From positions 1 to 32,750 of the forward strand of contig CAITNU010000026.1 of NCBI GenBank assembly GCA_903893865.1: 32,750 nt of DNA. The letters run 5' to 3'. The stretch comes from an uncultured Microcaldota archaeon. Its GTDB lineage: Archaea > Micrarchaeota > Micrarchaeia > Norongarragalinales > Norongarragalinaceae. The translations under genes and the position numbers were made by a program. The notes under the pieces were generated by a model that had not been told where the DNA came from, searched no databases, and saw only the letters and a list, made by a program, of their open reading frames with translations. Below, piece by piece: positions 3,307 through 6,792 of this stretch; position 1 is the first letter of the stretch, and every line of letters begins with the position of its first letter.

Positions 3307-4107
3307 TTGCGCAACCTGCAAAAACAAGTATTCGTTTTGATGATTCTGTGCGCTGCAATAGCGCTCTTAGTCGGTTACCAAACCGGCGGAGTGATTTCCG
3401 CGCCCAAGCAGAGCTGCCCGGAAGCATCTGGGCAGGCGTTTCCGACCGTAATCGCGCCCAACTCGTGCTCGAAGCAAAACTTGAATGACGAATTCTCGGT
3501 GCGCTTGAAACTGCCCGCCGTCGACAGAAACGACCAAGGCGCGCTTGCCGACCTCGTAGTCGAGCGCAGCGCTGGAGACGGCGCCGTATTCGTGCGCTTC
3601 AGCGGCAGCAGCCCGTTGATTAATCCTGATACGCAAACTTCGCTGCGCACCGCTCTCGACGTCGCGCAAAGAATCTCCGGCAAAAACCTGAACGGCAAAA
3701 ACTTGTACTACTCGATTTCCACGAGTTCCGACGTAGTCGGAGGACAAAGCGCTGGCGCGGCAATGACGATCGCAACGATCGCCGTGCTTAAAGGCGAAAC
3801 GCTGCGTCCAGACGCGTTGATTACCGGCACAATCGAAGCGGACGGAGGAATCGGGCAAGTCGGCAAGGTTTTCGAGAAAGCGCAGGCCATCAAGGCAGAA
3901 GGATACTCTTTGTTCGTAGTGCCTGCAGGCGAAGGAAGGCAGAGCGTTCCAACGAATTCTTGCGAAGAAGTGCAGGCTCCGGATGGAACGACGACGCAGT
4001 CTTGCACGACCGTGTACAAGATTGTAGACGTTGGCGAGGAAACCGGTATACGCGTCGTCGAAGCCAAGAACATCCGCGAAGCTTACGCGCTAATGAAACG
4101 CGGTTGA
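3307..4107 (+). CDS. membrane-anchored stand-alone Lon-type (S16) protease domain protein
   Basis: N-terminal hydrophobic segment VFVLMILCAAIALLVGYQTG, then GGQSAGAAMTIATIAVLKGE and GQVGKVFEKAQAIKAEGYSLFVVPAGE (Ser-Lys dyad region); no AAA+ module. TTG start. Confidence 0.8.
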   Translation: MRNLQKQVFVLMILCAAIALLVGYQTGGVISAPKQSCPEASGQAFPTVIAPNSCSKQNLNDEFSVRLKLPAVDRNDQGALADLVVERSAGDGAVFVRFSGSSPLINPDTQTSLRTALDVAQRISGKNLNGKNLYYSISTSSDVVGGQSAGAAMTIATIAVLKGETLRPDALITGTIEADGGIGQVGKVFEKAQAIKAEGYSLFVVPAGEGRQSVPTNSCEEVQAPDGTTTQSCTTVYKIVDVGEETGIRVVEAKNIREAYALMKRG

Positions 4108-4195: not shown

Positions 4196-4846
4196 ATGGC
4201 AAAACAAAAGCGTTCGCTGAACTTCCTGCTCGTCGCGGCAATAATCGTTTGCGCGGCCGCAGCCGCGCTATTCCTGGGCTACGCGCTTTTTCCTTCAACC
4301 AAGGAAACGCGTTTTCAAGCCGCTGCGATAGGCGATTCAGGTGAAGGCGTTATCGTCGATTTCGCGTTGCGCTCGCGCCCAGGCAACGGCGCGCTGCTCA
4401 TAAACGTGGAAAACGCTGAATGGCGCGCGGACGCTGAAAAGTCTTTCCGCGCAAGCCGCGAGCATGCCGAAAGCTTTCTCGGCGTTCCCCTCTCGAACCG
4501 AGATTTCGAGCTCGAGTTGCGGTCGCGGGAAGGCGGAGTGGAAGGCGAGAGCGCGGGCGCGGCGTTCGCAATAGCGATTATAGCGAATTACTTGAACGCG
4601 CAACCGCGCGAGGACGCGATTGTTTCGGCTGCGCTGGATTCAGAAAATTTAAGCAACGAAGCGCTGCTTCCAATCGGCGGAGCTGAAGAAAAAATTCTTG
4701 CTGCCGCGCGAGCGGGCAAGCGCGTTTTCGTAGTCGCGCAAGACCAGCCGTTGAAATACGAGGGCGAGCTCGCGCAGCGAATTCAAGTCGAGCGCGCGCG
4801 AACGCTGCGCGAGGCAGTGGCGTTGCTTCTCCGCCGAACGAGTTAA
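4196..4846 (+). CDS. second membrane-anchored Lon-type (S16) protease-domain protein
   Basis: N-terminal TM LLVAAIIVCAAAAALFLGYALF, then EGESAGAAFAIAIIANYLN and LLPIGGAEEKILAAARAGKRVFVVAQ; tandem with the preceding gene. Confidence 0.75.
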   Translation: MAKQKRSLNFLLVAAIIVCAAAAALFLGYALFPSTKETRFQAAAIGDSGEGVIVDFALRSRPGNGALLINVENAEWRADAEKSFRASREHAESFLGVPLSNRDFELELRSREGGVEGESAGAAFAIAIIANYLNAQPREDAIVSAALDSENLSNEALLPIGGAEEKILAAARAGKRVFVVAQDQPLKYEGELAQRIQVERARTLREAVALLLRRTS

Positions 4847-4874: not shown

Positions 4875-5042
4875 GCGGGGGTCGCCTAGTGGCTATGGCG
4901 GCAGCCTGCTATACGCGTTTTTCTTTGAAAAAACGCTGGTGGTAAGCTGTTAGCGCATTTCGCGCTGCGCGGGTTCGAAAGCACTTTTTTGCCTGCGGGC
5001 AAAAACCTGCGCTAAAAAGTGCCGAACGTCCCGCTCCCCGCG
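4875..5042 (+). tRNA. tRNA-Ser(GCU) with two introns: 4912..4944 (37/38) and 4980..5028 (59/60)
   Basis: Acceptor GCGGGGG(4875-4881)/TCCCCGC(5035-5041), discriminator G; 3-bp D stem GCC/GGC; anticodon stem GCAGC(4901-4905)/GCTGT(4946-4950); loop CTGCTA|A; variable arm AGCGC-ATTTC-GCGCT; T stem GCGGG(4969-4973)/CCCGC(5030-5034); T loop TTCGAA|T. Spliced 86-nt product folds as a class II serine tRNA. Confidence 0.9.
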
Positions 5043-5061: not shown

Positions 5062-6597
5062 TCAAGCGGAGCTTTCCAGCTGCTCTAATCTTTTTGTTAT
5101 TAGTCTAAGCCTTTTTTGAAGAGCTTCGCGATCAGTTGTTGGCGGAAAGCTCACTCCCATTCGGGGAAGAGAAACTTTTCGCAGCAGTTCTTTCAATTCC
5201 GTATCGCGCAGATTAGGCAGTCCGCCTCTAATCTTGGCTTGCTGAATGGCTATGTAATAGCCGGGCTTGCCCGACTCCTTAAATTGTTTCGCAAGCAGAG
5301 GGCGGCCAAGTTTCTTGTGAGTCGTCCTAACGAACTTCAGGATTTCAAGAATTTTTTTGCGGCTCCTAGGAGGTTTAACGTACGGATCGGGTTTTTTTAG
5401 AATGTCTAGAGCGTATAGCTCCTGCAACAAGCCTCGTCTGATAACATGACTTTGCAAACCGGGAGATAATTGTTTGAATAAAACGCGTTTGTCGCCCGTA
5501 AACTCCGTGATTCGTTTAATAACTTCTTCTTTGGAAAACGGCGGGACGCTCTTGTGACCTGAAGTTTTACTGGCTTTGTAAAGCGAAAGCACCACGCCGT
5601 GTTTTGTTTCTAAGCTCGGCTTTTCTTTTAGGACGCGCAAGTAGATTTTTGCGGCCGCACGCCTAGCCAAAAACAATTCAGACGCAATCTCGTTCAACCG
5701 CTCGTGAGAACCGCCGAAGTAGGGGGATAAACGCAAAGACAAAAACGCTGCCTCAGATCCGTGTTTTTGCGAAATTTCTTTAAAAACGCGTTGCTGGCTT
5801 TCCGTTAGATGCGGAAGGTTTTCGTAAAGCAGTTTTGCATAAAACTTGTCGGCAAATTCGGGCGGCGGCCGCGAAACTGGATCCTCTTTTTTTAATAGTT
5901 CTTTGAAGTAGGGTAGGCTTTGGTTTTCTATTTGTCTTAATCGTTCTCTTGTAAACCCCAAATCAGCTGCAATCTTTTTTCGAGGCTCATTAAGCAGTAT
6001 TCGTCTTATCGGCACGCTTGACGTTATATTGATGTTTTGTGGATTATTCGGGGGATATCGCTTTCCCAACTTATCCCAAATTCTTCGGTATGCGGCGGTT
6101 ACGTCGATGATATTCTGCGCGTAGGCCGGTGTTCGTCTGTCAGAAGCCAGCACACTTGAGGGTTTAAGAAAACCATTACCGAGTTCATCATAATAAGGCA
6201 AATTATTCGTGTTTATGCTTTGTCGGAGGTACTTTTGGTTCATAGATTGCAACCAACGAGAAAAAGTTGCATTAAACATGTCCTGTAAACTGCCTGGCTG
6301 ACTCTTTTTGGAAACAAGTTTTTTGGGGTCGAAAACGCGAAGAGTTTTATTAAAAGCATCGGGAACAATTTCCGGATGCTTGGAATGGATATAGCCTTTC
6401 ACGCGTCTTGACGATAGGTAAAAAGCCAGCGGGCGGTAAACGCGAAACAACTGTTTGGCTTTTTGCTTGAAACGAGGTGGTTGCGAGGCCAAAGGCACGC
6501 CGGGAACTCTTTCCATGAGTGTTTCGCACAACGCCTTCTCTTGGAGCAGTTTCAAGTGGCCATTGGGTTTCTGCGCGGTTTGAGCGATTTCTTTCAT
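5062..6597 (-). CDS. sigma-70-like protein (region 2-like and region 4-like segments) with extended C-terminal region
   Basis: LNEPRKKIAADLGFTRERLRQIENQSLPYFKELL closely matches sigma-70 region 4.2 (TRERxRQIE...AL.KL); YRPLAFYLSSRRVKGYIHS...DAFNKTLRVFDPKK...FSRWLQSMNQKYLRQ resembles region 2. Confidence 0.7.
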   Translation of the reverse strand: MKEIAQTAQKPNGHLKLLQEKALCETLMERVPGVPLASQPPRFKQKAKQLFRVYRPLAFYLSSRRVKGYIHSKHPEIVPDAFNKTLRVFDPKKLVSKKSQPGSLQDMFNATFSRWLQSMNQKYLRQSINTNNLPYYDELGNGFLKPSSVLASDRRTPAYAQNIIDVTAAYRRIWDKLGKRYPPNNPQNINITSSVPIRRILLNEPRKKIAADLGFTRERLRQIENQSLPYFKELLKKEDPVSRPPPEFADKFYAKLLYENLPHLTESQQRVFKEISQKHGSEAAFLSLRLSPYFGGSHERLNEIASELFLARRAAAKIYLRVLKEKPSLETKHGVVLSLYKASKTSGHKSVPPFSKEEVIKRITEFTGDKRVLFKQLSPGLQSHVIRRGLLQELYALDILKKPDPYVKPPRSRKKILEILKFVRTTHKKLGRPLLAKQFKESGKPGYYIAIQQAKIRGGLPNLRDTELKELLRKVSLPRMGVSFPPTTDREALQKRLRLITKRLEQLESSA

Positions 6598-6717: not shown

Positions 6718-6792
6718 GGGCTCGTAGCTCAGCCTGGATAGAGCGATTGCCTCCTAAGCAAGAGGTCGGGGGTTCGAATCCCCCCGAGCCCG
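6718..6792 (+). tRNA. tRNA-Arg(CCU), no intron
   Basis: GGGCTCG TA GCTC AGCCTGGATA GAGC G ATTGC CTCCTAA GCAAG AGGTC GGGGG TTCGAAT CCCCC CGAGCCC G; cloverleaf intact apart from A27/G43. Confidence 0.95.

Follow-up and report, generated by a model that had tools for sequence, protein, structure and literature searches.

Positions 4875-5042 of the window, by which we mean the whole 32,750-nucleotide stretch of DNA that was analysed, hold a tRNA-Ser(GCU) gene that is interrupted by two introns, one at 37/38 in the anticodon loop and the other at 59/60 in the T loop. Exon 1 is supported by ARAGORN on the spliced form and by alignment with nine intronless orthologues from related genomes. The parts of the gene, all on the forward strand, are as follows:

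4875..4911 (+): exon 1 of tRNA-Ser(GCU), comprising the acceptor 5' strand, the D arm, the anticodon stem 5' strand and GCU, up to position 37
4912..4944 (+): intron 1, 33 nt, at 37/38, with a relaxed bulge-helix-bulge (BHB)
4945..4979 (+): exon 2, positions 38-59, comprising the anticodon stem 3' strand, the long variable arm, the T stem 5' strand and the T loop to A59
4980..5028 (+): intron 2, 49 nt, at 59/60 in the T loop, with a canonical BHB
4981..5022 (+): core of a dispersed intron/repeat family within intron 2, GCACT-X-loop-X'-CCTGC(A/G)CT-X''-GTGC
5029..5042 (+): exon 3, comprising position 60, the T stem 3' strand, the acceptor 3' strand and discriminator G73

Joining exons 4875-4911, 4945-4979 and 5029-5042 yields an RNA of 86 nt, which ARAGORN identifies as tRNA-Ser(gct) with all stems complete, and removal of the introns thus leaves a complete class II tRNA, as is expected of a substrate for the splicing endonuclease EndA. 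When exon 1 was fixed and each intron was allowed a length of 0-100 nt, a constrained search returned a single solution, identical to the structure proposed in an earlier sequence-only reading of this DNA. Both introns, the anticodon GCU, the class II architecture and the discriminator G that had been proposed there are confirmed. By comparison, a solution of any kind arose in 118 of 20,000 trials that joined exon 1 to random places in the window, and a cloverleaf of any kind in 8 of 5,000 shuffles of its own downstream sequence. A T stem with 5/5 pairs combined with a central BHB helix of 4/4 and an inner helix of 4/4 occurs once on the two strands of the window, at the 4980-5028 intron. The precursor is predicted to fold at -81.4 kcal/mol, whereas shuffles average -62.1 (z -4.87), and none of 200 equalled the observed value. 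The ends of intron 1 are ambiguous by up to 2 nt leftward, since removal of 4910-4942, 4911-4943 or 4912-4944 gives an identical product. Placement of intron 2 at 58/59 would likewise leave a plausible T loop, and 59/60 is preferred because the canonical BHB geometry favours it.

The warning that tRNA callers may miss this gene proved apt. Within the window, ARAGORN and Rfam cmscan both call tRNA-Arg(CCU) at 6718 alone and miss tRNA-Ser(GCU). The unspliced precursor elicits no ARAGORN call, and if intron 2 alone is taken out the program reports a false tRNA-Thr. Just upstream of the gene lie two neighbouring proteins (3307-4107 and 4196-4846, both +) with weak Lon_C (S16 protease) matches. Facing it is a 511-aa protein (5062-6597, -) whose sole Pfam match, to SAP, is sub-threshold, and in which a RKKIAADLGFTRERLRQIENQ stretch presumably resembles sigma region 4.

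The two introns differ in how closely they conform to a canonical BHB. At intron 2, the central helix TTCG/CGAA and the inner helix GCAC/GTGC are each complete (4/4) and are separated by 3-nt bulges, AA|A and CG|T; this BHB is also seen in the MFE fold of the precursor. The central helix of intron 1 (CTGC/GTGG) has 4/4 pairs, two of them G-U, and is flanked by bulges TA|T and TA|A. Its inner helix is offset by a 2x2 mismatch that leaves 2/4 pairs beside the bulge, and the MFE hairpin, with a competing 6-bp pairing, is favoured over the BHB fold by 6.6 kcal/mol. Splicing at intron 1 would, on this model, depend on the broad specificity of the endonuclease. Pairing between exon and intron is maintained among relatives at both positions. 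In nine 37/38 introns, from tRNA-Ser of the window and of its relatives, 31 of 36 pairs of the central helix are kept, and in eight 59/60 introns (seven Ser and the host's own Ala) 31 of 32 are kept; shuffles average about 14 in each case, and at neither position did any of 5000 equal the observed value. Exon TTCG goes with intron CGAA or CGGG (in one case CGAC, a single mismatch), and exon TTCA goes with intron TGGA.

The enzymes that would process such a transcript are present in the host genome. A 194-aa EndA fragment at a contig end matches residues 199-387 of the ARMAN-2 chain (4fz2, 9w2k; E 2.3e-81) and spans the C-part of alpha together with betaC. By alignment, the catalytic residues Tyr236, His251 and Lys282, numbered as in the available text of PMC12397907, are identical. 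Because the contig end cuts the gene, this fragment shows neither the N-terminal unit nor the lysine loop. In the same-family genome G003, EndA is full-length (E 5e-129 to 4fz2/9w2k; aligned to 4fz2 residues 12-387), and the ARMAN-specific loop, which lies outside the host's own fragment, carries an identical Tyr160-Lys161. The family occurs in 36 of 40 genomes, in 31 of those 36 with frames of 378-442 aa, and the epsilon2 reference architecture is one chain of about 390 aa made of three units, alphaN-alpha-betaC. Judged by homology, the splicing endonuclease of the host is of the epsilon2 type, its own copy being fragmentary and the gene being complete in relatives. Broad substrate specificity is ascribed to this enzyme in those parts of PMC12397907 and PMC6379350 that are available. 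An RtcB is also encoded (E 1.6e-169), and we infer that tRNA-Ser(GCU) is spliced in the cell.

The window is contig C26 of a MAG (G000) of 1.01 Mb in 102 contigs that is 78.47% complete. A window protein that we take from its sequence to be a beta-CASP protein is 64-74% identical to its counterparts at 23 of 26 matching loci, nearly all from Ca. Micrarchaeota or archaeon MAGs; the other three loci are bacterial (29-34% identity). By these protein similarities, the host is a Micrarchaeota archaeon. The 1.01 Mb of the MAG were searched for another, intact tRNA-Ser(GCU), which the sequence-only reading had named as part of the evidence that would count against it. BLAST of the spliced form found no second tRNA-Ser(GCU) in this 78%-complete assembly, and the sole match to the exon-1 pattern in the genome is the one on C26.

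Among the tRNA loci examined in this genome, Ser(GCU) is the sole two-intron tRNA. Intronless genes are those for Val(UAC), Lys(UUU), Arg(CCU), Gly(UCC), Pro(UGG), Ala(CGC), Thr(GGU), Ser(CGA), Leu(CAG) and Leu(GAG, two loci), and many other loci have one intron at 37/38. Non-canonical introns, placed by script or by eye, are found in the T loop of Ala(UGC) (62 nt), at 30/31 of initiator Met, and in the D arm of both Gln loci, both Asp loci and Phe (the last by eye, the script's top solutions for Phe being wrong). The two tRNA-Asp(GUC) genes (L041 on C87 and L042 on C43) have identical exons and slightly different D-arm introns, and are either strain variants or a true duplication. The proposal of a DPANN-like genome with permissive splicing stands well with its Ca. 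Micrarchaeota relatives, its ARMAN-2 epsilon2-like endonuclease, and the canonical and non-canonical introns of its other tRNAs.

Orthologues reveal how variable the intron content of this gene is. The exon-1 pattern has matches in 40 of 98 genomes; 30 loci were listed, and the 24 that hold tRNA-Ser(GCU) were all kept (L136, L069, L073, L074, L083 and L084, which do not, were left out). Nine of the 24 are intronless, eight have an intron at 37/38 only and five at 59/60 only; the window alone combines 37/38 with 59/60, and in G009 (L096), where the script found no solution and the structure was assigned by eye, a variable-arm intron accompanies 59/60. The window's own family, f1, includes several of these states, and therefore introns of tRNA-Ser(GCU) come and go fast. 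The spliced window tRNA and the nine intronless orthologues align over 86 columns with a mean column identity of 83%. Two of the orthologues (L133 in G011, L134 in G023) have C33 in place of the near-universal U33.

Some of these loci also carry sequences that resemble tRNA 3' ends. The tRNA-Ser(GCU) at L130 (G018) has a 153-nt T-loop intron holding T-arm-like words (GGGTTCGAATCC), which looks as if it had been built by repeated 3'-end duplication. At three of the 24 loci (L091 in G008, L094 in G006 and L096 in G009), the final 14 nt of the gene recur, exactly or with one mismatch, 95-146 nt downstream of its 3' end, as might be left after integration of an element; copies of the 5' end were found at none of the 24. 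G007 has the downstream gene of G009 without the 3'-end copy. An origin of T-loop introns from duplicated tRNA 3' ends was considered and set aside, there being no such copy at the window locus.

BHB introns in the T loop are common in Micrarchaeota, an observation new in this work. In 98 genomes, the pattern GGTTCRAA-N13-43-YGRANNTCC gives 213 matches and its reversed control gives 57; the genomes matched number 80 against 37. Of 72 matches examined in 71 loci, 57 splice to a tRNA, representing many isotypes; this is a biased rate because 40 of the regions were chosen partly for look-alike introns, and some isotype labels (e.g. Pyl) are surely miscalls because of further introns. In the host genome the pattern matches the window alone, the intron of Ala(UGC) exceeding its length range. 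When the 57 intron cores were compared, 62 of 1378 pairs (14 within one genome, 48 between genomes) scored above all of about 27,560 shuffled pairs, with the proviso that the cores are T/A-rich and the shuffles keep single-base composition only.

The core of intron 2 also has relatives well beyond the T loop. Compared with introns of G042, a genome from another family, it scores 23.5 with tRNA-Lys(UUU) and 22.5 with tRNA-Gly, where the null maximum is 14 and none of 2000 shuffles reached the observed values. A degenerate pattern of the core finds eight places in 5 of 301 genomes of the phylum and none in a control: the window gene, the 37/38 introns of the host's own Gly(CCC), of Arg(CCU) in G007 (by eye), of Gly(UCC) in G002 and of Gly(CCC) in G013, and three places in G042. 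The G013 gene (L239, on C21) has, by eye, apparent D-arm and T-loop inserts besides its 37/38 intron. A model, R1, was built from seven of the eight places. It scores the window core (4981-5022), itself one of the seven training rows, at 58.2 bits, and at E<=0.01 it finds matches in 35 of the 301 genomes and none in the other 266. Twenty genomes match at E<1e-5, and training rows came from five of them. Of 23 named archaeal loci one matched (L045, from the MAG CG08_land_8_20_14_0_20_59_11; E 2.3e-5), and among 17 viral and bacterial loci (169 kb) used as a negative set the best E was 0.073. A viral origin was considered: the degenerate pattern has 14 matches in viral_contigs, which were treated as chance because they lack tRNA-like flanks (by eye) and because of this best R1 value.

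R1 copies in the host genome reside at 59/60 of Ser, at 37/38 of Gly(CCC) and of Arg(UCU), and in the 16S rRNA gene. Homologous introns thus occupy different isotypes, as in transpositions of the Thermoproteales type, and different positions within the tRNA. The 16S copy is a 49-nt insertion after GGCGAA relative to the Rfam model, and by eye it forms a BHB (GGCG/CGCT, bulges AA|A and GA|A). Against the Rfam archaeal model, this genome also has a 16S gene with a second insertion, of about 87 nt (L269; G000:C47:11900-12600). Among 60 R1 matches examined across genomes, 12 lie in T loops and 11 in anticodon loops at 37/38 (one of which, L274, is doubtful), four start in the last bases of tRNA-Leu, and 33 received no tRNA assignment by rule; therefore, an intron is only one of the settings of R1. 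By eye, these 33 include the 16S copy, the Arg(CCU) intron, three units in tandem outside tRNAs (G025 C12) and four dispersed copies in G085. The G085 copies (L246, L277, L278 and L279) also lie outside tRNAs and have like flanks on both sides, and the repeated unit there is therefore longer than the core. Within family f1, the number of matches varies from 0 to 20 per genome.

The copies of R1 share an unusual architecture. Forty-one distinct copies parse as GCACT-X-loop-X'-CCTGCACT-X'', and three of 48 aligned copies did not fit. X pairs with X' at 252 of 258 positions over 43 copies. X'' is the direct, non-reversed complement of X at 224 of 246 positions, where 5000 permutations gave a mean of 183 and a maximum of 199, the copies being related to one another; therefore, X'' mirrors X'. 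In the 19 copies that have C early in X, and hence can discriminate, the direct complement accounts for 110 of 114 positions and the reverse complement for 66 of 114. Ordinary antiparallel pairing does not demand this rule, which a purine third strand lying on the X-X' helix would. An alternative long pairing in the window's own fold, of GCACTTTTT with AAAAAGTGC, is workable where X is all T. RNAalifold found no two-sided covarying pair in a core alignment of seven sequences, in which an inserted C/G pair is out of register.

Near-identical small repeats in tRNA genes, in 16S rRNA and between genes suggest that introns move around these genomes. Were the gene an ordinary two-intron tRNA, the likeness of intron 2 to other introns could be convergence on T-run/A-run hairpins, which are good as BHB inner helices. 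The cores are T/A-rich hairpins, many T-loop introns share their BHB ends alone, and the pairs above the null are those 62 of 1378. However, convergence does not readily explain exact words outside the helix (GCACT and CCTGCACT) in all 41 distinct copies, a pattern with eight places in 301 genomes and none in the control, or the three tandem units of G025 C12, which sit outside tRNAs where a BHB is not needed, and we consider it quite improbable. Instead of a mobile repeat, R1 might be mainly a conserved functional RNA, such as a small RNA released from introns or an attachment or termination structure at tRNA 3' ends, and its presence in many introns would then reflect function. The strictness of the GCACT-X-loop-X'-CCTGCACT-X'' order, the 252 of 258 hairpin pairs, and an X'' rule that is kept while X changes would all suit such a role, but copy number and place vary freely between close relatives (0 to 20 per genome in f1) and some copies stand in tandem arrays, which makes a mainly functional role unlikely.

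The gene itself might be a decaying or pseudo tRNA if an intact tRNA-Ser(GCU) were hidden in the unassembled 22% of the genome, and with a MAG of 78.47% completeness in 102 contigs there is room for one. Against this, the spliced form has all stems complete, the exons are as conserved as in the intronless orthologues, intron 2 keeps a strict BHB, and relatives carry introns at the same two places of tRNA-Ser(GCU). Such decay is very hard to credit. We prefer, with a probability of roughly 85%, a working single-copy tRNA-Ser(GCU) that is processed by EndA and RtcB and whose intron 2 is a copy of a family spread through tRNA, 16S and intergenic sites of Micrarchaeota. The gene structure, the BHB of intron 2, the presence of the enzymes, and the homology of copies across isotypes, positions, genomes and families are results of computation that carry this reading, and the places and copy number of R1 point to its probable mobility.

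In the working tRNA gene that we favour, the transcript would be cut at both introns by the Micrarchaeota epsilon2 endonuclease, and RtcB would join the exons into the 86-nt tRNA. Within the phylum, the family of about 42-nt cores would have spread to tRNA genes, to 16S rRNA and to intergenic sites, with copies tolerated in tRNA and rRNA because a copy and a few matching flanking bases form a BHB that EndA removes. Movement might proceed by DNA transposition, by recombination with tRNA 3' ends, or by reverse splicing and recombination. The best reading of R1 is a transposing intron/repeat family that is excised by EndA. More tentatively, and at somewhat short of even odds, it may be a lineage-specific mobile element of about 42 nt with a three-stranded GCACT-X-loop-X'-CCTGCACT-X'' structure, which perhaps arose from recombination at tRNA-Leu 3' ends (CCTGCA) and exists both as free or tandem repeats and as EndA-excised tRNA and 16S introns.

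The origin and multiplication of archaeal tRNA introns have long been debated, mostly on evidence from Thermoproteales. A compact family that has copies as introns at two tRNA positions, in rRNA and outside genes, and that is present in genomes as close as one family, offers a traceable system in which one could date insertions, find empty sites and test the tolerance of the endonuclease. On the more tentative reading above, R1 would be a transposable unit that can be spliced out and would account for the filling of DPANN tRNA genes with introns. There is also a practical consequence, in that common tools under-call the tRNA sets of DPANN archaea and can thereby bias tRNA inventories drawn from them. 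New here is the membership of the intron 2 core in a repeat family that comprises introns at 37/38 and 59/60 in tRNAs of many isotypes, a 16S copy, copies at tRNA-Leu 3' ends, and intergenic or tandem copies. No description of this repeat family appeared in listings of the open-licence literature.

Multi-intron tRNAs have more precedent outside Thermoproteales than the sequence-only reading allowed, since the accessible text of PMC4033280 already lists ARMAN-1 and ARMAN-2 among archaea that have them. These two (Ca. Micrarchaeum) share with the present host the phylum, the epsilon2 enzyme, and canonical and non-canonical introns, several per gene, as far as the portions at hand of PMC4033280, PMC12397907 and PMC6379350 describe them. 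The present case concerns another genome and lineage of the phylum, and here intron 2 belongs to a sequence family that extends over isotypes, positions, 16S rRNA and intergenic DNA, for which no corresponding statement on ARMAN was found in those portions. Two introns in tRNA-Ser(GCU) are thus ordinary for Micrarchaeota; what is not ordinary is that one of them is a copy of a spreading family.

Thermoproteales provide the closest parallel for spread. Large-scale tRNA intron transposition is reported there (Fujishima et al. 2010, as described in PMC4033280, partial text), with similar introns in different isotypes, multiple introns per gene and an endonuclease of broad specificity. They belong to another phylum and have an (alphabeta)2 enzyme, whereas R1 copies are also found outside tRNA and have the GCACT/CCTGCACT architecture with its X'' rule. 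Intron density is a further point of reference, archaeal tRNA genes having on average 0.21 introns each, and those of Thermoproteales 0.84, according to the authors of tRNAscan-SE 2.0 (PMC8450103, excerpted). A mobile-element model of tRNA intron gain proposed for Caldiarchaeum similarly ties gain to an element whose integration at tRNA ends leaves behind repeats of tRNA fragments (PMC3293823, in the sections available); that element is a 1.8-kb insertion with a recombinase, in contrast to cores of about 42 nt without coding capacity. Finally, archaeal 16S introns are known from Thermoproteales (PMC4496867, from the text that is accessible), whereas here the 49-nt 16S insert is homologous to the tRNA introns of its own genome.
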